This document shows, one piece after another, positions 17,758 to 59,472 of a DNA stretch of 64,000 nucleotides. Origin of the DNA: Bidens hawaiensis (taxonomy: Eukaryota > Streptophyta > Magnoliopsida > Asterales > Asteraceae). The notes below the pieces were generated by a model, which searched no databases, was not told the DNA's origin, and was given only the letters and a program-made list of their open reading frames with translations. The translations under genes were made by a program, and so were the position numbers. The stretch's first letter is position 1. Each line of letters begins with the position of its first letter. The stretch covers positions 868,001 to 932,000 of the forward strand of contig JAIQDT010000059.1 in the NCBI GenBank assembly GCA_021521415.1. The letters run 5' to 3'.

Positions 17758-20700
17758 ATGGAAGACCAGGAAGTGTCAACCAACAAGATTACAAGGCTGC
17801 TTGGACAAGAGAACTTCATAAAATGGAAAGTGCTATTTGAAGCTGCGGTGAACTATAACGATCCAGAACTTTGGATGGCCATCACTGAAGGGAACTATAT
17901 TCCTTCAGCAGCTCCAAACAACAACGTTGCGGTTGATTTGAGAATGAAAAAGAAGGATGATAAAGCACTGTCAATGCTGAAGTTGGGTCTCTTATGGGAA
18001 ATTTTAACCACTGTAAATCATCATAAAAATGCAAAGGATATGTATGATGCAGTGATTGAAATGTTTGAAGGGAACATTGAGTTGAGAGATATTAAGAAAG
18101 ACCGACTGAAGCAGCAGTTGGACAGATTTAAGTTTAAAGAAGGAAAAAGGTTGAAGTCAGTGTTACAAAGGTCATGACCATTGTAAATGAAATTAGGACC
18201 ACTGATTTGCAGATTTCCGATTTTAAGCTTAACAAGAAGCTTCTGTCATCTCTATATGGAGAATGGTACACTGCCAGCAAGTTCATCAAAGAGAAGACCA
18301 ACTTTCCTAACTTCAAGTTAGATGATGTGATAGCTTTCCTCAAGGCTGCTGAACATAAAATGATTGAAAACCATATGATTCGAGAGGACAAGCCAAGTTT
18401 TCAAATGAACAATGCTCTTGTGGCACCCATGGGATATCTCTTGGTCAAGAATCAACAGCCTATCATTGAGGAACCATCAGAAGCAAACTCATCTTGTAAC
18501 AGTCAGTCAAGATTGAAGGTGCAGCTGGTTGAAGATGACAATCAATCTACTGGAAATGGGCAGTCTACTTTCGCACAACACAATCCAACTCAAGGAACAG
18601 ATTACCAGGCATTATTCTCAATGTTCACCAAGTCTTACCATGCCTTTGTCGCCAAGAACCTGATCAACACAAGTTTTGTGCAGGAAGATCTTGAGCAAAT
18701 TGATGCTGATGACTTAGAAAACATGGATATAAAGTGGCAGGCAGCTATGTTGGCAGTAAGAAGCAAAAGGTTGTATAACAGAACTGGCAGAACCAGTTTC
18801 AATGGACCCAATGAAAGGATTGGATTTGAAAAATCCAAAGCCATCTGTTATAACTATCAACAACTGGGATACTTTGTAAGGGAATGCAACATGCCAAGGC
18901 AGTCTGGCAATCAAGTTAACCAGAATCAGTTCTATCAGAATCAGAACCAAAACTTTCAGCAGCAAAGGAATCAAATGCCCAACCAAAATCCCTATCAAAA
19001 TCAGAATAGAACCCAGCAACAAACATTTCAACCTCAGAGAAATAATCAGATGCAGGTTCACACAAATCAAAACAGACCATCTCAAAATGGTGTGAACCAG
19101 CAAAGGGATCAAGGGAATGTAGTTGTTACAAGGGTGGCTCAGGATGGAGAGTTTGACTATCATGCTGCTGAGATGGAAAGGGCAAATGTTGCATTCATGG
19201 CCAAAATAAATGACAAGGCTGAATCTTCCAACACTCAGGTACATTCTGATACTTCTATTTATGATCTTCTTGCTACAATTGATGAATTAAATCAGGAGGT
19301 TGGAAAATGGAAAACTGAACGTGGAAGGAAGGATGTCTTTCTGAATATGTATGAGGCTAGTGAGGCTACATATGAAAGTTAAATCAAGGGATTGGAAGAT
19401 GATTGCATGGTATCATATCAAGCTCAATCCAGAATGAAAATTGAGATAGAAGGACTAAAGAAGATGCTTGCTGAAGAAAAACTCAAGAATGCAGAGTTAT
19501 TGATTGAAATTGAGTTTTGAAAAACCTTGTCTCTACAGGAAACATTATTGATCATGTTGAAAAGATGACAGAGGAAGAGAATTACAAGAAGGTACCACCA
19601 CCATTCTGTGACAGTTACCCATTAAAAGTTGATAAAGAGAGCAGAAGTGAGTATCTTAAACAGTTCAAAAATGTGTTTGATGATAAGCCTGAATTTATCA
19701 AGCAGTATGATGATGTGATTGTAGATCAGGATGGAGAATTTGTGATGAAACAGACTGATAAGCAAGAAACTGTGGTTGATGAACAGCTTCAAGGAGTGAA
19801 AAAGAAGTGGAGTGAATACTCCAGTGAAGAAAGCAATTGTAGCTGTGGAAGCTCTAAGTCATCAAAGAGGAAGAAGAAGAAAATAACAAATAAGAAGAAA
19901 AGTGAAAAATTCCTCTTCTGCCACCTATGACATCATAGGTAAGAAAGCACCACGAAAGAATGAGAAGAGAGCATGTTCCATTTGATATACGTGCTAGACC
20001 ACAGCCAGTCATCAAGAAGAGAACAGAACTACAGCCAGTCTTCAAGAAGAAAACAGAACAACCAATTAAATCTTCTTATGATCAGAGTCATCCACCAATC
20101 TACCCAGTTTTTTCTAATCATGAATTATTTGATGTTGGTGATGTGGATCATGCTCCAAGAAGAAGACATTCAAAAGAAGAAGAGGGAAGTTCTTCAAAAA
20201 TGCCATCCAAGCTGAAGAATATTGTTTCTGTCAAAGAAAAATATCCACAAGCAATTGATCTCAGCAAGCCAATCAAGATGGATTTCTCCAACACTTTGAA
20301 TCCAAAGACATCTTTAGGATTTGACTTCCCTAAACCAAGTGACAAGATTAAGGACAAGAAACTCCTTGAAGACTTGGGAAGCTTTGCTAAAGTATTCTGC
20401 ACGAAATGTGATGCATATGGGCATCACACTGACTCTTGCTGGGCTCTTGAGGATATTTTTGAAATTCCAGATGTGGTTAGTGGCTATGACATGAAAAGCT
20501 ACAAAGAAATGTATGAGAGATACTTGAATGGAAATAAAAACCCATATGAAGATAAGAACCATCAGCCTATGTTGGAACAAAGGCTCAAAACAATGATGAA
20601 GATCAAAGAAAATGACCAAATCCTGACAACAACAAATAAGAACAGAAGGTCACCAAATGAAGAGAAAGTCAAGAAGAGATCAGGTGTTCTAAATGGTGAT

Positions 20701-20970
20701 GAGAAGTTTCTGTTAAAACAAGGATTTGAACCAAGAGGATTCAAGTGGAAGATAAAGAAGGAAGTAGAAGAAGGGAAGGATAAGGTGATTGAGGAAGTTG
20801 ATAGTTGCACTAAAGTGTCTGCAGTGCACTTTAGATCAGAATACGACATTGATGAAGATTGTGAAGTCATATATGAAGATCCACCACCTGTTCCAATCCA
20901 AACTTCTGATGCATCCTCCACTATCTTTGAATTACAAACTGATGGAGTTTGTAACTCAGAATCAAACTGA
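17758..20970 (+). pseudogene. gag: Copia-A Gag
   Basis: The start is the ATG at 17758 (MEDQEVSTNK), matched by MDD-stop-EVSTNK in Copia-B. In order: a UBN2-type gag domain (FIKWKVLFEAAV, ELWMAI); a linker; a first zinc knuckle at 18846-18887 that is broken (Cys and His both replaced by Tyr); an Asn/Gln-rich stretch; a coiled-coil region; and an intact second knuckle (CTKCDAYGHHTDSC, 20398-20439). Gag forms the virus-like particle and packages RNA. Damage: a one-base deletion near 18170, a stop at 19380-19382 where Copia-B has CAG, and frameshifts near 19515 and 19930. The final stop is the TGA at 20968-20970, 21 bases before the pol acceptor-like AG. Confidence 0.85.
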
Positions 20971-20991
20971 TTCCTTTTTGTGTGTGTGCAG
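19239..20991 (+). other. Putative gag-pol intron of Copia-A
   Basis: The donor-like CAG|GTACAT (GT at 19239) follows a complete codon. The acceptor-like tract TTCCTTTTTGTGTGTGTGCAG ends at 20991, directly before the pol frame, also at a codon boundary. The position matches the stronger pair in Copia-C. Not proven; see findings. Confidence 0.5.
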
Positions 20992-41478: not shown

Positions 41479-44428
41479 GTACAATCTGTACTTTCTATTT
41501 GTGATCTTCTTTTAACAATTGATAAACTTAACATGGAGATTGGAAAGTGGAAATCTGAATGTGGAAGGAAAGAGGCTATTCTAAATGCTTTTGAAACAAG
41601 TGAAGCCACGTATGAAATTCAGATTAAGAGTTTAGAAGAAGATTGCATGCAAGCCTACATGACTCAATCCATAATGACAATTGAGATTGATGGGTTGAAG
41701 AAAATGTACACTGAAGAAAAACTCAAAAATTCAGAGTTACTAATTCAGATGGAATTTTTGAAAAACCTTGTACCAACTGGCAACATAGTTGGGTATGTGA
41801 ACAAGATGAGTGAAGAAGAAAAATACAAAAAATGTGCCACCACCTTTCGGTGACAAATATCCTCTAAAGGTGGTCAAAGAAAGAAGAAATTGTAACACCC
41901 CACCTGGATCCCGGGTGACAATGCACAATTGATGCACCTTAACAGCGGAAGAAAACAAAAAGTTTATTTTAAACTATAAAATATTCGAGTACATTAAGTC
42001 ACTATTTATAATAACATTAAAACTTAAGAACTTTTTGGTCTCCGATATCGCTCATCACCAAGTAGCTCTAAAGTTCCTCATGGTTCACCTGTGATACGTA
42101 TACTTAAAACAAGTCAGCTCTTGCTGGTGAGCTCATGAGACACGATTTATAAAACATATATTTATAATTATGCATACACAATATGGGTTGTGATAATTGG
42201 GTCCGGGAGCAACACGTGCCTACCATGGATTACCACAACCACCGGGCCATGGACATCACTGTCCCCCCAGCCATCGTGTAAGTATGGAGTCCGTTACTAA
42301 GCACATGGTTACCCCATGTTAGGCACCCCTCGTAACATATCCACTAAGTATACAAGGATCCTTTATACCCCCACCGATAAACGCATATTGCAGCATTCTC
42401 ATTATTACCAATTTAACAATACAAGTATACTATCACATTTTAAAAGTAGTCATGATAACTCACTGGTTTGATTGATGTTAATACGACAAGTATTGTCCTT
42501 TAGTCCTGTTACAAGTTAAGGTAACTTTAGGTTAAGCGATGCTATGCCTGACTAGTCATAACCATGGTTGACTTTGGATAACTCAACCTAGCTTAAGCAT
42601 AGGTGATCAGTCCATGCCTAGACCAAGGTTGATTTACTCAACGCCTACCCTATTATAACCCTAAATCCTACTCTTTATATTAAAAGATTATGTTCTATAA
42701 TTTAAACTAATATAATAATAGATATTAAGTTATAATTAAAATAAAGACTAATAGTTAAATATTTACCTACTTCGGAGAAGATTGAAAGTATTTGTAATTC
42801 ATCATTTGATTTTTATATATAGGCAAATTAAGCCGACCCTTTATGTCGGTTTTTATCATTAGTGACTTATGTTTGTTACACATGAATTTTGTGGATTCAA
42901 ATGAACAGCATACGTGCACTCTAATTAAATTTCTTTCTTTTTCTTATTGTTATATTAGTATTAGTTTTTATTGTTATATATATATATATATATCCATTTC
43001 AAGTTATTATAATTCTCTAATATATATATTAACTCTTGTTTAAACGTCTTAAGTTAAAACAGTTATTTTACTTTTCTCATTTAATAATATTTACAATATA
43101 TGTTTTATATATTTTATTTTTACCTATAAAACGGGGTGTTACAGAAATGAATATCTTAAGCAGTTCAGGAGTGTATTTGAAGACAAACAGGAGTTTGTAA
43201 AGAAGTATGAAAGTGTGACTATGAATGAAGGGGGTGAGTTTATCTTAAAGGAAAATACTGAATCAAAGGCTAGAGAAGGGGCTAAGTCTGCTGAAAGAAG
43301 AAATGGAGTGAATACTCCAGTGAAGAAAGCAACTGTAGTTGCAGAAGTGACAGATCCTCAGTTGACAAGAAAAGAAACAAGAAGACTGCAAAAGAATAAG
43401 AAGAACAATGAACAGATCCCAAAGCTGCCAAAAACAACCCCTAAGCTTCAGAAGCACTATGAAAAGATGAGGAGAGAACACAAGGTGTTTGATATATGTG
43501 GAAGACCTCAAACAAAGAACAAGAATGATAAATCAAAGATCTACACATATGATTAACATCCTCCAATTTATCCTGTGTTATCAAACCATGAGCTGTTTGA
43601 CATAGGGGATGTTGAATACACTCCAATTAGAAGGCATGCTGCTAATCAAAGGGAAAGTTCCTCAAGCAGTTTCTCTAAGATAAGCATGATCAAATTTATC
43701 AAAGAACAGTATCCTCAAATCCCTGATGTAAGCAAGCCTATCAAAATGTACTTCACCAACTCTCTATACCCAAAAACCTCTCTAGGCTTTGACTTTCCCA
43801 AGCCTAGTGACAAGTTCCAAAACAAACAGCTGCTTGAAGATATGGGAAGTTTTGCTAAAGTTTGGTGCAAGAAGTGTGATGCTTATCGTCATCACACTGA
43901 TTCATGTTGGGTTGTTGAGGAGATCTTTGAAGTTCCTGACATTGTCAGTGGATTTGATACGAAAGGATACAAATAAAAGTATGAAAAGTACTTGAGTGGT
44001 GAGAAGAATTCATCTGATCATGAGGAAAGGAGGCAAATATTGGAAAAGAGGTTGAAGTCAGTGCTAAATATCAGTGAAGAATCAAAAGTATCAGACAAAA
44101 CCCAAGAAGGAAAGAGGTCAAGTCCTAATGGAAGATCAAAGTTGAGCCCTGGAATCCTGAATGGAGATAAAAAATTTCTCCTAAAACAAGGTTTTGAACC
44201 AAGAGGTTATCAGTGGAAGATCAAGAAAGAGTTAAATAACTGGAAAGACTATGTGCTTGACAAAATTGAAGAAAGTATCAAGTCACCAGTTGAAGATGAG
44301 TCTGATTCTGATGAATCATGTGAAACAGTTTATGAAGATCCATTTCCATCTCCTGTTGAAGTTCAAAATGAAACTGATATAGTTTGTAACTCAGAATGTA
44401 ACTGATCTTTCTGTGTGTAATTGTGTAG
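41479..44428 (+). other. Putative gag-pol intron of Copia-B (contains solo LTR)
   Basis: The donor-like CAG|GTACAA (GT at 41479) falls at a codon end. The acceptor-like tract CTTTCTGTGTGTAATTGTGTAG ends at 44428, just before the pol frame at a codon boundary. Both sites align with those in Copia-A and Copia-C. The solo LTR 41891-43143 inserted inside. Confidence 0.45.
41891..43143 (-). mobile_element. Ty3/gypsy solo LTR
   Basis: The 1253-bp sequence starts TGTAACACCCC and ends GGGGTGTTACA, a perfect 11-bp inverted repeat with TG...CA ends. The target duplication GAAAT is exact (41886-41890 and 43144-43148). There is no internal region, so an element was removed by LTR-LTR recombination. The minus-strand orientation is inferred from GGAAG-type words near the plus-strand start, placed as in the Tekay-like LTR. 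It contains a (TA)n run near 42978. Confidence 0.85.
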
Positions 44429-47869: not shown

Positions 47870-48797
47870 TTGATGATGTGTGCTTAGGTGAAATGCTTAT
47901 TGACTATCTATTTGTTGCTCACTGTGATAAATTGCATGATTTGTTGATATATGCTTGAATGACCATCTTAATTATTTGAATCATGCTTGATATATTGTAT
48001 GTTTGAAATTTGATATGTCTTTGATATTCATGTCTCTGTTACTTAAATGTAGGCATGCTGGATATATTTTGTAGTTTTAAGTATTTCAAGCATGGATCTG
48101 TGCTTGATACTGTATTTGTTGCTCCTTGATCACTGGCAGTCATACTTGAGAACTTTCAAGTATTTCAAGCACAGATGACTTGTGTCTGATGTTCGAGCAT
48201 GAACATATGTCTTGCAAGCATGTCCTTGTCTTTAGAGCATATATCTGTTGTTCAAGCACCATGATTGTGTCTAAAATAATCTCTATGTATTTCAAGCACA
48301 CGTCTATTACTCGAGCAAAATGAGATGATGATTTTCAAGTCCATCGAGCACACGCAGTGACATGATATACTTCAAGTTTGCTCAATTGGATACCTGTGTG
48401 CTCGAGTGAAAGTTAACTCAAAGCTGTATGAGTTTGCTAATTGTGTGCAACTTGTGTGCTGTTTGTAAGTCATATGTGCTTAAATGACAAAATGTGTTTC
48501 AAAATTAAGCGCAACATGAATTTCTCAAAGAAACTAATGTTTGACACATAAATGATTTTTGACTAAGCAACCAGTTTTCGGTGAACTCATAAAAGAAATG
48601 ATAATACTATTCAGTTACAAGCTTTGAAGAAGCTTAAAATGTTTTTAAATGGAGATTGAATACAACCTTTGGGAAATGATAGTATATTGTTTAATCTCCT
48701 AACCCATGGATTATAGGCTTAAAGGATTTCTGATCAGTAAATTGACATTTTGTATGGTATCTTTTGATGAGTGTAGTGACATAAGTGATATAAATAT
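47870..48797 (+). other. Copia-B 3' noncoding region, left part
   Basis: Aligned to Copia-A 23898-24880. TTTCAAGCA/CGAGCA words lie at 48070-48410. A block shared with Copia-A and Copia-C (GGGAAATGATAG...) is at 48669-48760. Copia-C inserted at 48798. Confidence 0.7.
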
Positions 48798-49246
48798 TGT
48801 TAGGACATGAAATGTCATGTGTATGTCCCCAGTTCTATCAGGATGGTTCGATATGAAAATAACGATCGTGAAACCAAGTTAACGGACTGAAAATGTCAAA
48901 AGAAACTGATTCGATCGAATCAGTGACTGATTCGATCGAACCAAGACTCATTCGATCGAATGAGATACTCATTCGATCGAATCAGTATACGATATATAAA
49001 CGAAACTTAGGAAATTTCACAAGAGAGAGCACACATTACACACAGTCACGAACCTGCTACTGCCGAAAATCCTCTCTGCCCATCTTCGTCGTGTCGGTCT
49101 TTTCCTCCGTCCCTAGGTGTCAAACCGTCTTAGGAATCGTAACCGTGCGTTGTTGATCACCACCGAATCGCCGTGTTAGAGGATTCCGCACTCTAACACG
49201 TTGCCCCGTGAATCGTTGGGAAACCGTGTCCCGCACCGGTCCGACA
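48798..49246 (+). repeat. Copia-C 5' LTR
   Basis: TGTTAGGAC...GTCCGACA. Four TTCGATCGAA decamers lie at about 48911-48980, followed by a TATA box TATATAAA at 48993-49000. It differs from the 3' LTR only at an A/G in the CCAAGACTC word and a G/A in one TTCGATCGAA copy. Confidence 0.95.
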
Positions 49247-49249
49247 AAG

Positions 49250-49261
49250 TGGTATCAGAGC
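49250..49261 (+). other. Primer binding site (iMet) of Copia-C
   Basis: TGGTATCAGAGC, three bases after the 5' LTR. Confidence 0.92.
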
Positions 49262-50044
49262 CTTTGGTTCTAGATTCACGTTAGATTCGTGGTAAAATTC
49301 GTGTTTTTCTCGCGAAAATCGTAATTTTTGCCGGAAAATTCCGAATTTTTGGTGTTTTTGATCTTGGTGTTCGTCGTGTTCTTGTCAAAAACTGTTAAAA
49401 TTGTCATACTTTGGTGTTTTGATCTTAGAATTGTGTGTTAAAAGTTCGAGTTTCGTCAAGAACGTTCTTCGCGTTCTTCGTGTTCTTCGTATTTTTGGTG
49501 GTTTTGATCCGTTTTCTGGTTGGTCTTAAGTTGTTTTTGTGTTAAAAGTCATATTTTGATCTTAAGTTGCTTCTTGATCTTCCAAGATTTGTGTTTTTGA
49601 TTCAAAATTCGAAAATCCGTCAAAATCTTCTAATTTTGGAATTTCCAGATTTTCCGATCGAACGTGTCTATTTTTGGAACTCATTCGATCGAATAGCCTT
49701 CCTATTCGATCGAACAAGTTTAAACTTTGACCGAATCAGTTTTTTTTCCCGCCGAGAATTACTCCTAGTTCATTCGATCGAACCAGATTTGTTCGTTCGA
49801 TCGAATTAGTCACCATTCGATCGAATAAGTCTTTTATTCGATCCGCCGATTCGATCTTTGTCTTATTCGACTGTCAGAACCCGTTCGATTGAACCAGAAA
49901 CTCTTTCGATCGAACCTCTCAACCCATTCGATCGAACCAGATTCACATTCGATCGAATAACTTACAGATCAGCATTTCAGAGAGACATCCGATCGAATCA
50001 AACCCATTCGATCAACAGTTCAACGTTAAAGCAAAGAAACAAAG
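49262..50044 (+). promoter_or_regulatory. Copia-C leader with clustered TTCGATCGAA motifs
   Basis: Noncoding leader between PBS and the gag ATG. The first half is T-rich with GTGTTTTTGATCTT words. From about 49655 to 50010 there are roughly fourteen exact or near copies of the palindrome TTCGATCGAA, mostly preceded by A or C. The same motif occurs four times in each LTR. The open frames here are by-products of the motif. Confidence 0.7.
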
Positions 50045-53000
50045 ATGGCTGCAAGTTCGAGTACCAACAAGAGGATTCAATCGATTCTCGAAAGTGATTC
50101 TGAATCGGGAAGCTATAACAAGCCACCAAAGCTAATGACTTTAAACGATTTTACAACCTGGAAGACAAGATTTCAAATTCATATAACAGGTGTGAATCCT
50201 GGACTTTGGGAAGCTGTTCAGACAACTTGGGTGCATCCGACAAATGATGATGGTGAGACTTTGAGTTACTTTAGGCTGTCTGAAGATCAAAGGATAGCCT
50301 TTGATGCTGAGAAGAAAGCCTTCTCGTTACTGTCACAAGCACTTTCAAGCGATCTCTTCCATCAGTTTAACCAGTTTACAACAGCGTCAACTCTTTGGAA
50401 CGCACTGGTTGAACGATGTGAAGGATCTGACTCACTTAGAGAAATTCACGCACGGGAGCTCAAGCGTGAATTTGATTTGTTTGGTCCAGAATCGGGAGAA
50501 GACATTGAATCGTTACTGTCGAGATTCTATCATCTAATGTCAGAACTCAAGTCCTATAATGTCAAAACAACAGGGACTGAAAAGGTTAGATGTCTTGCTC
50601 AAGGACTTCCAACCAGCTGGAACACCTTCCTGACAGTAATGAGAAGAAGTCATCAGCTGGAGACGATTCTCCTGTCTGATTTTATTAAAGAAATCAGACA
50701 AGAAGAGGCTGAACTAAGAGCCTCCTCCAGAAAACCGAGATCAACTTCTGACAAATCACTCTACATGTCAAAACCTCCTATGTCAGATTCAACTGATCAT
50801 GCTCCGATGAAGACCGCTTTTGTCTCCTCAACATCAAATCAATCAAAGGGGACTGAAACGAGATCTTCCGTCCCACCATCAACTTCTGGAAACTCAAGTA
50901 TTAACTCCGGACCCAAGTCAACGGAGAAAGCAACGTTGAATACTGAAGGCTTGGGAACAGTAACAGTGGAGGTTGCCAAAGAACACATGGCAACTCTAGG
51001 CACGATAATTGAGTCCTACAGTTTAATGGTGGCGGGTAAGCTAGGAAATAGTCATCTGGACAGTGATGACTATGAACAGCTTGACGAAGATGATATGGAA
51101 CGCATAGACATTATGTGGGCTCTTGGCAGTGCGTTCCGAAGGGCCAGAAAGTGGACGAAGAAAACAGGTCAGGCCCTCTCAATAAACAACAAATCCAAGT
51201 TCGGCTTTGATAAAAACAAAGTAAAATGCTACAACTGTGGCGAACTTGGTCACTTTGACAAGGAGTGTTCGAAGCCAAGAAGGGAAGGTCACCAATATCC
51301 CTTCCGAACCACTTCATCATCATCCACTCCTGCTGCAGCTGCTGCAACTGTCAACCTTGAGAGACAACTGGTCCCTCAAAATCAAACCGCAGCAAACAAC
51401 GTCAACATCAACAATGAAACTGCTCTTGCAGTTCAAGGGGATGAAGGCGAGACATGGAACTTCAGCATCAACATGGCTGATGTCACAATAGTAGATGGAA
51501 ACTCTGAAACCGAGTCTGTTGTTTCCTCGACCAATGAAGAATATATTGTCGATGAACCAGCTGCTGAAGTCCATGAAGAAGAACCTGAGGTTGAAGTGGT
51601 ATCTTTGGAGATTAAGGAGGATCACGATAAAGAGTCAAATGTTCCTCAAATATCTCCATGTTCGACAATTCCCGCAGAGGCTGCTAAAGTTGAAGAAGTC
51701 AACGAAGTAGAGTCTAAAGCAACTTCTGCATCGTTTCTGGAAAAAGCTGGGAATCTTTGCTTTGCATTCATGGCAGAGACATCAAATGCCAAGGTAAGTT
51801 CTAACCCATCAACTCCCAAACCAGAAAATGTTAAATGTTTAAAATGTGAATTGTATGAACAAGAAATTCAATCTCTAAAAGAGAGAATTGAAGATCTCGA
51901 GGCTTACAAACAAGCAGCCTCAAGATCTTTAATGGAACTGACTGACGCGCTTGCACAGAATAAGGCTTGGAAGCAGAAAGAGTCTGCTTTTAAAGAAAAG
52001 ATTGATAGCCTTAAGCGTCAGAACAAGGAACTTGAAATATGTGTTCTGAATCAACAAGATTCTATCAATTTTCACATAAATAAGAATAATGTTTTAAAAA
52101 AAGAATTGGAAAACTTGAAAGCTGATTTTGAATCATTGAATTTCAAATTAAAAAGTTACTCAAATTCATCTTATTTATTAGAACACATCATTCCCGAGTT
52201 CCGAGGCAAAAAGGAAAAAGGCGTGGGATATAACAATGTCCCACCCCCGATCCTGAATCAATTTGCAAGCACACCAGGAGCTGTGCCGGATGATGAATCA
52301 AATGATTATATACCCGAAGACACAAACCAAATTTCTAAGTCTAAGGGAAAAGAAGTCATTGACCCGGCTCCTGAGTCCAAACAAAATGTTGTTGCCACAG
52401 ACTTAGGTTCCACAACTAAGTCGGGCCCACCACCATCTAAGTCAAAGGCAACAACAACAAGAAATTCTCAGAAGAAAAAGTTTAATCCTAAATCTGAGAA
52501 AGTCTATGTGGAACATAGTACCCAGTTTGTAAAGGAGGGTAACGTTAATGAAAAACATAATTTCCCAAAACACCCTCCTAGACAAACTACACCCCAAAAT
52601 ATCAAATCCAGGGGGTACTATGATAACCGACAAAAACAGAGTTATTTCTCTCCACCAAGTCAAAGGGGGAGAAACTACTGTTTTTCGTGTGGAGAGGTAG
52701 GGCATATAGCAAGATTTTGCTATAAGTACACGGATCCTAAGCAGTACATATCGACTCCGGATCCGAGGTATACCAAGTCACCTCCTAGGAGGCGACCGAC
52801 CATTGACGTTCAAGGTCAAGAACGGTTTCACACACCGAGGTCGGTTTCTCCTCGGAAACCTCAGCCAACCTCACCACACCAATCCCCAAACCCCTCAGAT
52901 CCAAATGTTTCCACTTCGACAAGTGAAACTCAGTCTTCAACCATCTATCTCAAACATGTTGAGAAGAAGACTGACTTTTGGAAACCAAAGAAAACTAACA

Positions 53001-53122
53001 CTGTTGACAACAATGTCAAACCAGAAAACAGTGTTAATGAGGGTAAATGGATTGAATTGTACATTCGTGATGAAAATGGAAAACCCAAGACCGTAAAGGC
53101 TTGGGTTTCCAATGATATTTAA
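50045..53122 (+). CDS. gag: Copia-C Gag (1025 aa)
   Basis: Starts at ATG 50045 (MAASSSTNKRIQ) and ends at TAA 53120-53122. Residues about 30-230 form a UBN2-type gag core (TWKTRFQIHITG, LWEAV, LVERCEG, ELKREFDLF). A CCHC knuckle, CYNCGELGHFDKEC, lies at 395-408. Then come an acidic region and, at about 600-720, a heptad-rich coiled coil (LYEQEIQSLKERIEDLEAYK). A second knuckle, CFSCGEVGHIARFC, lies at 879-892, followed by a Pro/Ser-rich tail. Gag builds the virus-like particle and binds the RNA genome. It is longer than most copia Gags. AAG|GTAAGT after residue 583 is a consensus donor, so residues 584-1025 may be absent from a spliced product. No stops or frameshifts. Confidence 0.93.
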   Translation: MAASSSTNKRIQSILESDSESGSYNKPPKLMTLNDFTTWKTRFQIHITGVNPGLWEAVQTTWVHPTNDDGETLSYFRLSEDQRIAFDAEKKAFSLLSQALSSDLFHQFNQFTTASTLWNALVERCEGSDSLREIHARELKREFDLFGPESGEDIESLLSRFYHLMSELKSYNVKTTGTEKVRCLAQGLPTSWNTFLTVMRRSHQLETILLSDFIKEIRQEEAELRASSRKPRSTSDKSLYMSKPPMSDSTDHAPMKTAFVSSTSNQSKGTETRSSVPPSTSGNSSINSGPKSTEKATLNTEGLGTVTVEVAKEHMATLGTIIESYSLMVAGKLGNSHLDSDDYEQLDEDDMERIDIMWALGSAFRRARKWTKKTGQALSINNKSKFGFDKNKVKCYNCGELGHFDKECSKPRREGHQYPFRTTSSSSTPAAAAATVNLERQLVPQNQTAANNVNINNETALAVQGDEGETWNFSINMADVTIVDGNSETESVVSSTNEEYIVDEPAAEVHEEEPEVEVVSLEIKEDHDKESNVPQISPCSTIPAEAAKVEEVNEVESKATSASFLEKAGNLCFAFMAETSNAKVSSNPSTPKPENVKCLKCELYEQEIQSLKERIEDLEAYKQAASRSLMELTDALAQNKAWKQKESAFKEKIDSLKRQNKELEICVLNQQDSINFHINKNNVLKKELENLKADFESLNFKLKSYSNSSYLLEHIIPEFRGKKEKGVGYNNVPPPILNQFASTPGAVPDDESNDYIPEDTNQISKSKGKEVIDPAPESKQNVVATDLGSTTKSGPPPSKSKATTTRNSQKKKFNPKSEKVYVEHSTQFVKEGNVNEKHNFPKHPPRQTTPQNIKSRGYYDNRQKQSYFSPPSQRGRNYCFSCGEVGHIARFCYKYTDPKQYISTPDPRYTKSPPRRRPTIDVQGQERFHTPRSVSPRKPQPTSPHQSPNPSDPNVSTSTSETQSSTIYLKHVEKKTDFWKPKKTNTVDNNVKPENSVNEGKWIELYIRDENGKPKTVKAWVSNDI

Positions 53123-53143
53123 ACCTTTTGTTTTTGTGTGCAG
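51794..53143 (+). other. Putative gag-pol intron of Copia-C
   Basis: GT at 51794 in AAG|GTAAGTT, a perfect plant donor. AG at 53142-53143 ends TTTTGTTTTTGTGTGCAG. The length is 1350 nt, divisible by three, and both exon ends lie at codon boundaries. Removal would delete the Gag stop codon and the second zinc knuckle and join Gag residue 583 to Pol in frame. Predicted from sequence only. Confidence 0.6.
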
Positions 53144-56100
53144 GTTGCTCTATATGATCCAAGATTCAACATGTGGATCATAGACTCAGGAGCTTCCAGG
53201 CACATGACTGGAAACATGAATCTCCTTTCAAGTGTCAGACAAATAAAAGGAGGTGCAGTTTCCTTTGCAGGAAATCAAGGAGGTTATATCACGGCCCAAG
53301 GAATTGTGTCTAATGGGCGAATTTCGTTTGAGAAAGTTAATTTCATCAAAGAGTTGGAGAACAACCTGTTGTCGATAAGTCAAATCTGCGACAAAGGTTT
53401 CAAAGTTATGTTTGACGACCGAGATTGCCACATCTTGGCTAAGGATTCCAACTTTCCTGAAGACAAGGTTTTAATGTCAGCTGCACGCCAGAGTGATCTC
53501 TACATTCTGGATATGGCTAAGGCAGGGTCATCGTCTCCAACGGCGACATGTTTTGTGTCCAAGGCATCCGAACGTGATACTGTCTTATGGCATAGACGGA
53601 TGGGACACATAAATGTCAGGAACATGAACAAGCTTGTGCACAACAGACTAGTTGAGGGAGTTAATCTGAGAAGCTTTCGTCTCCCTGATTCGTGTGTGCA
53701 GTGCAAAGCAGGAAAGCAAATAAAAAGGTCCCACAAGTCTAAGAGTTTCCACTCGATTGATATTCCGTTGGAACTCCTTCATATGGATCTTTTTGGCCCA
53801 ATAAGCGTCAAAAGTATCTCTGGGCACTCATACTGTCTAGTGGTTACTGATGAATATTCTAGATTCTCTTGGGTGTTTTTCTTGAAAGTAAAATCAGAAA
53901 CGTTTGGATGTATACAACTGCTGGTTACAACTATTGAGTCTCAATACAATCTGAAGGTTCGAAGAATGCGGTCAGATAACGGTACAGAATTTAAAAATGC
54001 GAATGTTGAAAATTTCTGCAAAGAAAAAGGGATCGTTCAGGAGTTCAGTGCTCCATATGTTCCACAAATGAACGGGGTTGCTGAAAGGAAAAATCGTACG
54101 TTAATCGAGACAGCAAGAACAATGTTAGCCGACTCAGTGTTACCTGTTACGTTTTGGAGTGAGGCAATTGCCAACGCCTGTTTCACATTAAATCGGGTAG
54201 GCATTGTCAAGCGCCACGGCAAGACAAGTTTCGAGCTTCTTCAACGACGAAGGCCTAACTTAGAGCACCTGGAACCATTCGGAGCTCTTTGCACGTTACT
54301 TAAAAGGCACGTTGATAATAAGTTCGAGGAGAAGATTATCAAGGGTTATTTTCTGGGTTACAGCGTACCTCTCAAAAGGGTCTTCAACAGAACAACAAAA
54401 TTAGTTGAAGAATGGTACCATGTCGATGTTCAACGCTACACAGAACCAGCCAAGGGGACAGGAGAAGACTGGTTGTTTGATTATGACAAATTGTTCAAGT
54501 CTTTCAATCTGTATGAGATTGCTATTCAAATGATGTATGAGGCGCAAAATGCACCTCCTGATGAATCTTTGCAATCTTCAACTCATCCTGGTCCGTCATC
54601 ATCTTCCTCCACAGAGTCTAGCGATCAAGTTCAAGAATCTTCCGAATCTGAATCTGAAGATGAATCTCCAGCAGATGATGTACAATCGGCACCAACTCAG
54701 GTTACTTCACAACCTTCATCGTCAAATCAAGAAGTGCCGAATGCAGATCAGCCTCTAACGTCTACTTCAGAGGCACCACAATCCGCTCCAGTTCCTGAGC
54801 CGAACTTAACTAACTTGGAACAAAATGTTGTCGTTCCTGACAATCCGGTTGTTAGGACTGAACGTGATCATCCACAAGACAACATTATAGGGGACATTCA
54901 ACAGGGTGTCAAAACTCGTCGACAGCTGAATTTTGGTCTCTACACAGAAATGATGGAGTCAGGATCAGTTGCTCTTAATGCCCATGAATGCTTCTTAGCA
55001 CAAGAAGAACCACACAGCACCACCGATGCGCTGAAAGATCCCAACTGGGTCTCAGCCATGCAAGAGGAATTATTGCAGTTTAAAAGACTTGGTGTGTGGA
55101 AGCTGGTGGATCTCCCCAAAGGACAGAAGAAAATTGGCACTAAGTGGGTACTAAAATGTAAACGTGACGATCGTGGAGTGATTGTTCGCAACAAAGCCCG
55201 CCTGGTGGTCCAAGGGTTTAGGCAAATCGAAGGCCTAGACTACAATGAGGTATATGCTCCGGTTGCTCGTTTGGAGGCAATCCGGATGTTCTTGGGGTAT
55301 GCATCTTTCAAGAAATTCAAAGTATATCAAATGGACGTCAAGAGTGCCTTTTTGTACGGTCACATCGAAGAGACCGTATATGTGGCACAACCTCCAGGTT
55401 TTGAAGACCCATATCACAAGGACAAAGCCTATCTGCTCAACAAGGCTTTGTACGGTCTTCACCAAGCCCCGAGAGCTTGGTATAAAGAACTATCCAAACA
55501 CCTTCTGAACAACGGGTTTAGAAGGGGAACCATTGACTGCACGCTATTCTCAAAAGAAAAAGAAGGAGATCTAATTATGGTACAAGTGTACGTGGACGAC
55601 ATCATCTTCGGGTCCAGGAATAAAACACTTTGTAAGGAGTTCGAACAAGTGATGAAAGAAAAATTTGAAATGAGCTCCATGGGTGAGATGAAGTTCTTCT
55701 TAGGACTTCAAGTTGATCAAAAAGATTCCGGTATCTTCATTCACCAGACAAAATACGTCAATGACATCTTGAAACGGTTTGAGATGTTGAGTTCTTCTTC
55801 ACAGGGAACTCCTTTAGAGGTTAATCACGGGATTAATCCTGACGAGAAGGGTGAATTGATCAATCCAACTCACTATAGAGGGATCATCGGATCTCTAATG
55901 TACCTGACTGCTTCTCGGCCAGACATAATGTTTGCTACGTGTCTCTGTGCACGTTACCAGTCAAAGCCGAAGGTCTCCCATCTGATTGCAGTCAAAAGAA
56001 TTTTGCGTTATCTGAAGGGTACTCCAGATTGGGGTCTTTGGTATCCTTATGATGACAACTTCGATCTTCATGCGTATAGTGATTCGGATTATGGTGGTTG

Positions 56101-56557
56101 TAAACTCGATTACAAATCAACAACAGCAGGATGTCAGTTCTTTGGAAGTCGTTTAGTAACGTGGCAATGCAAAAAGCAGACGTCAGTCTCCACTTCAACA
56201 GCTGAGGCGGAATATATTGCGGCTGCCAGTTGCTGTTCTCAAGTTATTTGGATTCAGCAACAAATGCGTGACTACGGTATTGAATGTTCTACTACTCCCA
56301 TATATATTGATAATTCTGCTGCAATTTCAATTACCAAAAATCCGGTCCATTTTAGCAAAACGAAGCACATCGAAATTCGATATCACTTCCTTCGTGACTG
56401 CTACGAAAAGAAGTTAATCGATGTGATAAAAATCCCCACTCAGGAACAACGCGCTGATCTCTTCACTAAAGCATTTGATAAACCACGGTTTTTATATTTA
56501 CTAGAGATCAACGGCGTTAAACGTATATCAGAAGATGTTCCTGAAGATATCATTTAA
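53144..56557 (+). CDS. pol: Copia-C Pol polyprotein (PR-INT-RT-RH)
   Basis: Numbered from 53144, the first codon after the acceptor-like CAG; no ATG is needed if it is made as a Gag-Pol fusion. Protease DSG at 14-16 (WIIDSGASRHMTG). The integrase zinc region has HRRMGH and CVQCKAGKQ, with catalytic D215 (LLHMDLFGP), D278 (RSDNGTEF) and E314 (NGVAERKN), a D-x62-D-x35-E spacing. A Ser/Gln-rich linker follows. RT runs from about 640, with D731 (YQMDVKSAFLYG) and YVDD at 816-819. RNase H has D980 (AYSDSDYGGC) and Glu residues in TAEAEYIAAAS, ending RADLFTKAFDKPRF. The frame is the same as gag, and a single TAA plus 21 nt separates them. Every catalytic residue is present, so it is probably functional. 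Confidence 0.95.
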   Translation, partial: VALYDPRFNMWIIDSGASRHMTGNMNLLSSVRQIKGGAVSFAGNQGGYITAQGIVSNGRISFEKVNFIKELENNLLSISQICDKGFKVMFDDRDCHILAKDSNFPEDKVLMSAARQSDLYILDMAKAGSSSPTATCFVSKASERDTVLWHRRMGHINVRNMNKLVHNRLVEGVNLRSFRLPDSCVQCKAGKQIKRSHKSKSFHSIDIPLELLHMDLFGPISVKSISGHSYCLVVTDEYSRFSWVFFLKVKSETFGCIQLLVTTIESQYNLKVRRMRSDNGTEFKNANVENFCKEKGIVQEFSAPYVPQMNGVAERKNRTLIETARTMLADSVLPVTFWSEAIANACFTLNRVGIVKRHGKTSFELLQRRRPNLEHLEPFGALCTLLKRHVDNKFEEKIIKGYFLGYSVPLKRVFNRTTKLVEEWYHVDVQRYTEPAKGTGEDWLFDYDKLFKSFNLYEIAIQMMYEAQNAPPDESLQSSTHPGPSSSSSTESSDQVQESSESESEDESPADDVQSAPTQVTSQPSSSNQEVPNADQPLTSTSEAPQSAPVPEPNLTNLEQNVVVPDNPVVRTERDHPQDNIIGDIQQGVKTRRQLNFGLYTEMMESGSVALNAHECFLAQEEPHSTTDALKDPNWVSAMQEELLQFKRLGVWKLVDLPKGQKKIGTKWVLKCKRDDRGVIVRNKARLVVQGFRQIEGLDYNEVYAPVARLEAIRMFLGYASFKKFKVYQMDVKSAFLYGHIEETVYVAQPPGFEDPYHKDKAYLLNKALYGLHQAPRAWYKELSKHLLNNGFRRGTIDCTLFSKEKEGDLIMVQVYVDDIIFGSRNKTLCKEFEQVMKEKFEMSSMGEMKFFLGLQVDQKDSGIFIHQTKYVNDILKRFEMLSSSSQGTPLEVNHGINPDEKGELINPTHYRGIIGSLMYLTASRPDIMFATCLCARYQSKPKVSHLIAVKRILRYLKGTPDWGLWYPYDDNFDLHAYSDSDYGGCKLDYKSTTAGCQFFGSRLVTWQCKKQTSVSTSTAEAEYIAAASCCSQVIWIQQQMRDYGIECSTTPIYIDNSAAISITKNPVHFSKTKHIEIRYHFLRDCYEKKLIDVIKIPTQEQRADLFTKAFDKPRFLYLLEINGVKRISEDVPEDII

Positions 56558-57488
56558 ATTGTTTTCATTTTTTCTTTTCTTAAAAATTTAAAAAAAAAAT
56601 CCAAAAAGATTTTGTTTTTTTTTTATAAATTCTAGGGGGAGAAAGGTTTCAAGAAAAACCAAAAATTTTCAAAATTTTGAGAAGTTGATCTTGTTACAAG
56701 AAAGGTGATAGTACACAGACGCTATCATACTGAGACATCAAAAAGATTTGTTATTTCTGTACAGCTTATTTTCATTTTTCTTATATTAAATTTTTATACA
56801 TCACTATCGCTTAAAATTATGTCGGTTACCTCAGTTTGATGGACACATTTTCGGATGTGTTTTGGTCCTTACTTCTACTAGTAGATTATGAGGATAGCCA
56901 TTAACCAGATGACTGAAAGTGATCGGGGCGGGTTTTGATGGGTTTTTTATTCTTTCGCTGAAAAATAGTCGGTTATACTTAGTTAGAAGGACACATACTC
57001 GTATGTGGTCGGTCCAGTTGATCCATTGGATCTTCAGGATAGCCGTTTACCTGAAGACTTTGACTTGATCGGGGCGAAATAATTTAAACGTTATTTTTTT
57101 TAAAAAAAAGGACATTCATATATATTCAGAAAATGAGAAATTGATCCAACCTTGGAAAATGATAGATACACTGATTCTGTGAGCTTAACTAGTGAAGTTA
57201 TTAGGCTTAAAAGGCTTTAGAACGGTCATTGTGTGTCATGGTAGCTTTTTATGGTGCGTAAAAGTAGATGTGATACAAACTAAATCTACTCGATTTTACG
57301 TGGAAACTCCTTAAGAGTTTTGTATGTCTTCATATATATCTTTCCGAATGATAGGCAGAAAAGCGATTACCCAGTCATACACGAGCCCATAAGTGTTCTG
57401 ATTCCTGTAAAGATAGTGTGTGAAGAAACTGCAGTGATCCAGATTCGGGACTTGCAATTGTTTACTACTCTGAAGTCTATGTAACATT

Positions 57489-57523
<35 letters not shown>

Positions 57524-57936
57524 ACCTTATGAGTGATTGAAACATTCTAGAGTTAACAATGTCAAGACTTCTCAATCATGGAGTAAGAAAGAAAACGGGA
57601 AGCAGATGAAGACACTTACAACCTTAATCAGACACTATGGGTCAAGGTCAATTCGGGGTGACTTGGGGAAAGCCAAATACGCTTTGAGAATAGATAGGAG
57701 GCATCATAATCTCTGAGTTGTTACCCACTTAAATTTTGAGACATAATTGAACCTAACTCGTATCACAGAAACGATGAAAACCATTTTAAGTTATTTACAT
57801 GCTCACAACCTGTTTCTTTATGTCATAATACAGCTAAACACGGATCTGTGTGACAGTCACGTAATTAGTATGATTCCTGTTCGGATCTTTCTCACAAAAA
57901 GAATATTCATTATGTCTTGTTTAACTTCGTATATTC

Positions 57937-57979
<43 letters not shown>

Positions 57980-58602
57980 CCCGAAAAGTCTCAGTAGATA
58001 GTCATATACGTCTGTATGATTTCTTATTATAGATCCTTCTCAACCAAAAATAATGTGTTTTAAATTTTTGTACAGTTGTTTATTTCAGTTTGAATATTAT
58101 AAAAAAAAAAAAAAAACATACAAAAAGATTTTTATTCTGAATTAATTTTTTTTAATTTTATTCTGTTTTTTTTAATGAGAAATCATCGTGACAGGTAGTC
58201 TGATCCCTGTCTGTTCCTACTAAATGTTTATCCAGTGTGTAGGAATGAAAGAAAACTTCATGCAGGTTGCTAAATGTTCATCTGTGCAACAGGCTGTGCA
58301 TGAAAGAAAGAATGAAGTGACAAGAAAACCCAAAGATGTTTGAGCCTGATATTTTTCCATTTGTTACTAATGTATTATGATCTATATGTTCTGTAGGAAC
58401 GAAGCTCTCAGGATATGCGGAACCTATGGTAAGTCTGACTGACTGAACCATTTGATCTTGAGAGAACTTCATGAAGAAAGGAGTTCGTGGATGCAACGTG
58501 CGCACCACTAGCTTTGAGAAAAGAGAGAGTGAGATAACTCCAAGGGGGAGTTACGATCGAGCAAGAGAACTCGATTGATTATAAGTAAATAGAACTGGAT
58601 CC
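56558..58602 (+). other. Copia-C 3' noncoding region
   Basis: No coding region. PPT-like tracts TAGGGGGAGAAAGG (about 56632) and CAAGGGGGAGTTA (about 58540) precede the terminal PPT; repeated PPT-like tracts are known from Sireviruses. Blocks shared with Copia-A and Copia-B lie at about 57151-57245, 57339-57388, 57638-57700 and 57818-57892. Two related segments with GGACACAT..TCGG and GATCGGGGCG words (56822-56935 and 56970-57080) look like an internal duplication. A-runs at about 57490-57520, 57940-57977 and 58101-58115. Confidence 0.75.
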
Positions 58603-58613
58603 AAGGGGGAGTT
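58603..58613 (+). other. Polypurine tract of Copia-C
   Basis: AAGGGGGAGTT immediately before the 3' LTR. It primes plus-strand DNA synthesis. Confidence 0.88.
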
Positions 58614-59062
58614 TGTTAGGACATGAAATGTCATGTGTATGTCCCCAGTTCTATCAGGATGGTTCGATATGAAAATAACGATCGTGAAACCAAGTTAACG
58701 GACTGAAAATGTCAAAAGAAACTGATTCGATCGAATCAGTGACTGATTCGATCGAACCAGGACTCATTCAATCGAATGAGATACTCATTCGATCGAATCA
58801 GTATACGATATATAAACGAAACTTAGGAAATTTCACAAGAGAGAGCACACATTACACACAGTCACGAACCTGCTACTGCCGAAAATCCTCTCTGCCCATC
58901 TTCGTCGTGTCGGTCTTTTCCTCCGTCCCTAGGTGTCAAACCGTCTTAGGAATCGTAACCGTGCGTTGTTGATCACCACCGAATCGCCGTGTTAGAGGAT
59001 TCCGCACTCTAACACGTTGCCCCGTGAATCGTTGGGAAACCGTGTCCCGCACCGGTCCGACA
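58614..59062 (+). repeat. Copia-C 3' LTR
   Basis: 449 bp, two differences from 48798-49246. The target duplication AATAT follows at 59063-59067. Confidence 0.95.
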
Positions 59063-59472
59063 AATATAATGATCATGCTAAGTCTGATGTGGTGACACAT
59101 TAGAAGACCAAGGTATGTTTCCTTGCACATCTCTCCAAATGATAGGCAGAAAGGTAATTATCCAATAATACACGAGCCTGTTGGTGTTTTGGTCTTAAAA
59201 AAAACAAATTTACAAAGTATCTGAGCAGCTATAAAAATATTGCTATATAAAAGCTTATCAAAAGAAAAGAAAGAAAAAGAAAAATATTAAAAAAGAGAAA
59301 TTCTTCAAAACATAGTATATAAAGAATAAGTTATAAAATATCATGACTTAAGGGGCACCAGGAGAACTACAAGGGTGGGGCAAACAAATAAGTTCTAAAC
59401 AATCTGAATGTAAGGCATGTAAGTCCGGATGGCATCTAAGTCCAATGTCAACCTTATAGTCTGATGTACACA

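Follow-up and report, generated by a model that had tools for sequence, protein, structure and literature searches.

Gag–Pol expression in related plant retrotransposons

Sireviruses are abundant retroelements of plants. Published accounts describe a large gag with CCHC motifs and an interrupted gag/pol boundary, sometimes with the two genes in different frames, and treat the expression of pol as unsolved (PMC2829016, PMC5009743). The proposals printed in the relevant passages of these accounts are frameshifts or other recoding, internal entry, and bypass, with readthrough discussed for SIRE1 between pol and env; those passages make no mention of splicing as a route to pol. An earlier note on the DNA analyzed here had cited SIRE1 as an example of readthrough at the Gag–Pol boundary, which the corresponding passage of PMC2829016 does not bear out, as the printed case concerns the step from Pol to Env. 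A review from 2016 still treats the gag/pol boundary as a puzzle without a solution (PMC5009743).

In the Ogre elements of pea and Medicago, which belong to the Ty3/gypsy group, some transcripts have an intron spliced out, which opens the complete polyprotein to translation (PMC6317226). Facultative splicing is also described for two Ty1/copia elements, with the products assigned the other way round. In barley BARE1, Gag alone is made from the spliced RNA, with Gag–Pol coming from the full-length form (PMC3735527), and the shGAG form of EVADE/ATCOPIA93 is described in the same terms (PMC12786077), in line with the earlier note's statement that BARE and ATCOPIA93 use splicing to tune Gag against Pol. 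Attempts to amplify DNA copies of the spliced BARE1 RNA from barley were unsuccessful (PMC3735527). Bianca, another Ty1/copia element, has two ORFs with a region between them and is suspected of a "unique strategy" (PMC6317226).

Copia-C, the element described here, lies in a 64-kb window (the whole stretch of DNA that was analyzed) and appears to be a copia element in which the BARE/EVADE logic is inverted. In the proposed mechanism, positions 51794–53143 form a facultative intron. Unspliced RNA, which is presumably also the genomic RNA, would be translated up to the stop at 53120, giving a 1025-residue Gag with two CCHC knuckles. The host spliceosome would join 51793 to 53144, removing the stop and fusing Gag residues 1–583 in frame to Pol, and the splicing ratio would set Gag against Gag–Pol. 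The probability of this reading, with Gag from unspliced RNA and a Gag–Pol fusion from spliced RNA, is put at roughly 0.86 on the sequence evidence below.

In both Ogre and Copia-C, the intron, predicted in the latter, lies between an upstream and a downstream ORF, and its removal fuses, or in Copia-C would fuse, the upstream ORF to pol. Ogre differs in being a Ty3/gypsy element with GAG-PROT before RT-RH-INT and, in its published description, a mean inter-ORF region of 274 bp, whereas in Copia-C the division falls between Gag and the whole of Pol, and the predicted intron is ~1.35 kb long and encodes a constrained Gag tail. Membership in Ogre is ruled out by the copia gag and domain order of Copia-C, which would resemble Ogre only in how it works. 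With BARE1 and EVADE, as these are described, Copia-C shares its Ty1/copia affiliation and, apparently, facultative splicing that tunes Gag against Gag–Pol, but the roles are reversed, with the junction form joining Gag to Pol in frame. The shGAG type, in which the spliced form encodes only Gag, does not fit this product. The reversed logic claimed by the earlier note thus holds relative to BARE1 and EVADE, but it has a precedent in Ogre (PMC6317226).

Copia-C also shares a large CCHC gag and an interrupted gag/pol boundary with the Sireviruses, and two ORFs with a region between them with Bianca, in which the separation has a mean of 172 bp (PMC6317226). No report of Gag–Pol splicing in a copia or Sirevirus element appears among the matches listed from the open-licence literature, judged by title and the start of the abstract. 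Copia-C would offer a concrete, testable answer to the puzzle of the Sirevirus gag/pol boundary.

Organization of Copia-C

Copia-C is an LTR retrotransposon that spans 48798–59062 of the window, with near-identical LTRs (2 mismatches over a 452-bp aligned stretch) and the target-site duplication (TSD) AATAT on both sides. Its features are as follows.

48798–49246, + strand: 5′ LTR, TGTTAGG...CCGACA; TSD AATAT at 48793–48797
49250–49263, + strand: primer binding site, TGGTATCAGAGCC-like, putatively of tRNA-Met type by its motif
50045–51793, + strand: gag exon 1, 583 codons, with Retrotran_gag_2 and the first CCHC knuckle (51227–51268); from translation and Pfam
51791–51799, + strand: predicted 5′ splice site AAG/GTAAGT; from sequence, score, and conservation
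51794–53143, + strand: predicted facultative protein-coding intron; unspliced, 442 C-terminal Gag codons; absent from 25 junction copies
52679–52720, + strand: second CCHC knuckle, CFSCGEVGHIARFC, which splicing would remove; read in the translation, with no Pfam call
53120–53122, + strand: Gag stop TAA, within the predicted intron; from ORF reading
53123–53143, + strand: 21-nt spacer with a pyrimidine tract and a predicted CAG 3′ splice site; its length is 22 or 23 nt in 8 of the 38 copies in which it could be measured
53144–56557, + strand: pol exon 2, with Pol_BBD, gag_pre-integrase, integrase, SH3-like, and RVT_2 domains; from Pfam
58614–59062, + strand: 3′ LTR; TSD AATAT at 59063–59067

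The gag ORF (50045–53122) encodes 1025 aa and terminates at the TAA at 53120–53122, and the Pol ORF (53123–56557) lies in the same frame, so that the arrangement described in the earlier note, one frame split by a single TAA, is confirmed by ORF reading. In gag, Pfam identifies a copia-type domain together with one CCHC knuckle, at residues 394–410, and pol follows the copia domain order, with rve and then RVT_2 in the next stretch. Extra ORFs 3′ of pol, a trait of many Sireviruses, are present in the family: between pol and its 3′ LTR, copy C381 contains three stretches that are open from stop to stop, with 224, 259, and 426 codons, which the window copy does not have. Copia-C appears to be a Sirevirus-like Ty1/copia element.

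The 3′ region that holds these open stretches of 224–426 codons in C381 is common to the 3′ pieces of 12 of the 16 junction copies described below. The 3′ LTR of C1063 and C14292 is placed as in the window copy, and the readings of C75 and C222 are ambiguous. The loss of this region from the window copy seems to be located at a 12-bp repeat, AGCTCTCAGGAT, at 58403–58414. Many CGATCGAA-type repeats are found in the leader (49680–50000) and in the LTR (48900–49000).

Predicted splice sites and intron

The predicted donor, AAG/GTAAGT with its GT at 51794, and the predicted acceptor, TTTTTGTGTGCAG ending at 53143, delimit an interval of 1350 nt. Both ends fall on codon boundaries (phase 0), and 583 Gag residues lie 5′ of the donor. 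The sites are exactly as the earlier note gave them, and the translation agrees with its statement that removing the interval deletes the stop and the second knuckle and joins Gag residue 583 to Pol. Its further point, an interval divisible by three next to an in-frame spacer, describes the window copy but not the family, in which the interval measures 1319–1393 nt in the alignment, with one disrupted copy at 1281 nt, and the spacer varies among 21, 22, and 23 nt.

Within the window, the + strand contains AAGGTAAGT a single time, and relaxing the pattern to NAGGTRAGT adds no further site. The donor ranks first among 3630 GT and the acceptor first among 3911 AG on this strand in a rough scoring that combined an approximate plant donor matrix with a hand-made acceptor score. 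AAG/GTAAGT is kept in 99 of the 100 copies listed, out of 686 counted, as judged by eye in a sample chosen independently of the donor, and both sites remain near-consensus throughout diverged clades.

The family is abundant in the 3.47-Gb assembly to which the window belongs. Matches to a 20-nt donor pattern, with three mismatches at most, number 683 + 705 (reversed control, 39 + 58), and an anchored pattern independent of the donor gives 344 + 342, the 686 intact copies. The donor region occurs in three copies at ~2.88-kb spacing at G000:C52:3867844, 3870722, and 3873601, which suggests that part of the element was duplicated in tandem at this locus.

Typical plant introns are U-rich. The Copia-C interval is not, with a T content of 24.1% (exon 1, 24.0%; pol, 26.9%). 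Such a composition is expected for a coding intron but is of no help to the case for splicing, and no convincing branch-point candidate was identified in the interval. Exitrons, the protein-coding facultative introns of plant genes, are known for exon-like composition, an open frame, and coding constraint. The predicted Copia-C intron is likewise exon-like, open, and constrained; it differs in lying within a mobile element and in containing a stop that separates two genes.

Genomic copies that lack the interval

The predicted spliced junction is present at 16 places in the 3.47-Gb assembly in a direct search that allowed up to three mismatches: 14 are perfect, two have one mismatch, and the reversed-pattern control gives none. 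A wider anchored pattern, with 8–30 bases free on the exon 1 side and the exon 2 edge fixed, finds 25 places including these 16, all joined as AAG/GTTGCTC, again with no control match. Both patterns hold the exon 2 edge constant and are therefore blind to joins at any other acceptor. By reading, 15 of the 25 junction copies belong to the window's clade, three to a CACTTC clade, and seven to a GATGCC clade. They are rare next to the 686 intact copies, which were counted with a partly different anchor; for BARE1, as reported, none could be amplified.

Exon 1 and exon 2 adjoin without a gap in all 16 of the first-found junction copies. An Ogre-type fusion of the upstream ORF to pol is seen in Copia-C at the DNA level only: it is carried by the 25 junction copies, and 13 of the 16 first-found read without interruption to either side of the join within the sequence covered, with L054, L055, and L058 having a stop or frameshift. 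A 5′ LTR lies at the expected distance, in differing flanking DNA, in 14 of the 16 copies examined, and C14496 and C222 have no intact LTR start within the stretch examined. All four junction copies read at both ends have 5-bp TSDs: TGGTT (C1063), TGAAC (C381), AAACC (C955), and GTTAT (C13946). The junction copies look like transposed copies of the element.

Exact loss of this interval is what reverse transcription of a spliced RNA would leave, which supports splicing. The junctions would have been made by spliceosomal splicing, and the Gag–Pol fusion would be translated from the spliced RNA. The earlier note's proposal of splicing as the switch from Gag to Gag–Pol appears strongly supported, given 25 copies with exact interval loss, three clades, and the repeated origin described below. 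The genome itself serves as an archive of apparently spliced copies.

Repeated origin of the junction

The phylogenetic tree has 61 rows, made up of the 16 first-found junction copies, 44 fetched intact copies, and the window copy. The nine junction copies found only by the wider pattern are excluded, L043 and L044 are omitted from the 46 intact copies fetched outside the window, and L001 and L007 are replaced by longer stretches from the same places (L009 and L028). The junction label changes 14 times on this tree, against a shuffled mean of 14.2. Well-supported branches force at least nine label changes, with bootstrap values not fully settled, and a single clade of junction copies is rejected (p-AU 0.00013, at a cost of 1130 log-likelihood units) in a test that left three sets of identical rows free. 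Given these supported changes and the rejected clade, one founding deletion does not explain the data, and a single origin of the junction is rejected by the tree. Splicing has probably happened many times, as recorded by the junction copies; some of the changes on the tree may be template-switch exchange, not fresh splicing.

For 15 of the 16 junction copies, a single sampled intact copy matches both the final 300 nt of exon 1 and the initial 410 nt of exon 2, without gaps and at an identity of at least 98.7%. For L055, the exon 1 side is 70.7% identical in this ungapped comparison, probably owing to an indel. Clade-specific letters can be read about 9–20 nt upstream and 8–9 nt downstream of the join.

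A mosaic clade, L011 and L017, was observed in comparison with window positions 51695–51994, where identity is mostly 77–91% in exon 1 and about 92–99% past the donor. This jump in identity places a recombination breakpoint close to the donor.

The Gag stop and the spacer

The spacer between the Gag stop and pol measures 21, 22, and 23 nt in 30, 7, and 1 of the 38 measurable intact copies, respectively. In the other 8 of the 46 fetched copies, the gag frame ends ahead of the usual stop, leaving no measurable spacer. Among the 22-nt copies, L009, L010, L016, and L027 have gag open to the TAA and pol open within the sequence covered, and L020, L043, and L047 carry other damage. L009 and L010 belong to the GATGCC clade, defined by letters next to the donor, which also contains 7 of the 25 junction copies.

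Readthrough could act in the window copy, whose spacer is in frame, as the earlier note had allowed; it is not general, with 22 or 23 nt in 8 of 38 copies. The existence of intact-looking copies in which the Gag stop and Pol are out of frame weakens readthrough as a general route, and readthrough as the sole route is incompatible with the 22- and 23-nt spacers. One splicing event would yield an in-frame Gag–Pol in the 21-, 22-, and 23-nt classes alike.

Alternative explanations

The 1350-nt losses could instead be deletions, made by reverse-transcriptase template switching or by microhomology at AGGT, the only sequence that the two splice ends have in common. Another repeat-associated loss is present in the family, that of the window copy's 3′ region at a 12-bp repeat, and a survey with a fixed exon 2 edge is limited to joins at that edge. 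However, about 7805 pairs of comparable span have at least 4 bp of homology, yet it is the AGGT pair that recurred, on at least nine supported label changes, and a deletion at a 12-bp direct repeat with copies 1200 nt apart, which is the longest of comparable span, the strongest competitor, and the sole control deletion searched, was found 0 times. Deletion in place of splicing is very improbable. Alternatively, the junction may have arisen once, and the resulting intron-less lineage may have gone on to transpose and to recombine with intact copies. In their exons, several junction copies are nearly identical to one another, and the mosaic clade indicates that exons of this family recombine. 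Such a history is at odds with the rejection of one clade and the label changes on supported branches, with the clade-specific letters on both sides of the join, and with the match of both sides to the same intact copies in 15 of 16 cases, making it very improbable.

In a third reading, most Pol would come from recoding during translation of the Gag stop, whether readthrough or frameshift, and splicing would be a minor by-product. The 21-nt spacer is in frame in the window copy and in the majority class of 30, a +1 shift is formally possible in the 22-nt copies, and published Sireviruses include some with pol in the +1 frame (PMC5009743). Recoding would nevertheless require different events in the 21-, 22-, and 23-nt copies, whereas splicing serves them all, and a donor and acceptor kept near-consensus in diverged clades also count against it. 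Recoding as the main source of Pol is considered unlikely. We infer that splicing is the main route to Pol; translation of unspliced RNA could also yield Pol, with readthrough acting in 21-nt copies and a +1 frameshift in those of 22 nt.

Coding constraint on the interval

Comparison of the window copy with L009, L010, and L047 of a diverged clade gives a dS of about 0.33 for the interval-encoded Gag tail and a dN/dS of 0.25–0.29, against 0.08–0.10 for exon 1. In low-divergence pairs (dS at most 0.08), the tail has a dN/dS of 0.25 (L017), 0.34 (L011), and 0.5 (L002). Exon 2 ratios are unusable for L047, which is apparently frameshifted, and for L002, with only 54 codons. By these ratios, the protein of the interval is under constraint.

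Of 7986 candidates scored in a protein database search, a single weak relative emerged: P0001, a long Gag whose C-terminus is similar and, by reading, terminates in a similar DENGKPKTV.AWV peptide; no match was found in a viral contigs database. The coding constraint and the similar C-terminus of P0001 suggest that the unspliced Gag product is probably used. One DNA stretch would then serve both as an intron and as constrained coding sequence.

Copia-A and Copia-B

Two diverged families in the window, Copia-A and Copia-B, also have a stop in CTGAT, a pyrimidine-rich (T/G-rich) tract, and CAG/G or TAG/G directly before pol. In Copia-A, the stop is at 20968 and the putative acceptor ends at 20991, ranking third of 3911 by the same rough score. 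In Copia-B, the region lies at about 44405–44428, and its putative acceptor, ending at 44428, ranks 115th by that score. A Copia-A junction built with a guessed donor at 19939 has no match in the assembly. A search for AAG before Copia-A exon 2 gives one match, which reads as an unspliced acceptor with C changed to A.

It is conceivable, if somewhat doubtful, that splicing across the gag/pol boundary is the general Sirevirus way to Gag–Pol, with the odd boundaries being consequences of a 3′ splice site there; the two Copia-A searches count against this. If so, the stop codons, the +1 frames, and the UAG ahead of pol in Sireviruses would all follow from that site. In Copia-B, the TAG of the site is itself a stop in frame with pol and directly before it; this could be a mutation, Copia-B being a decayed copy.
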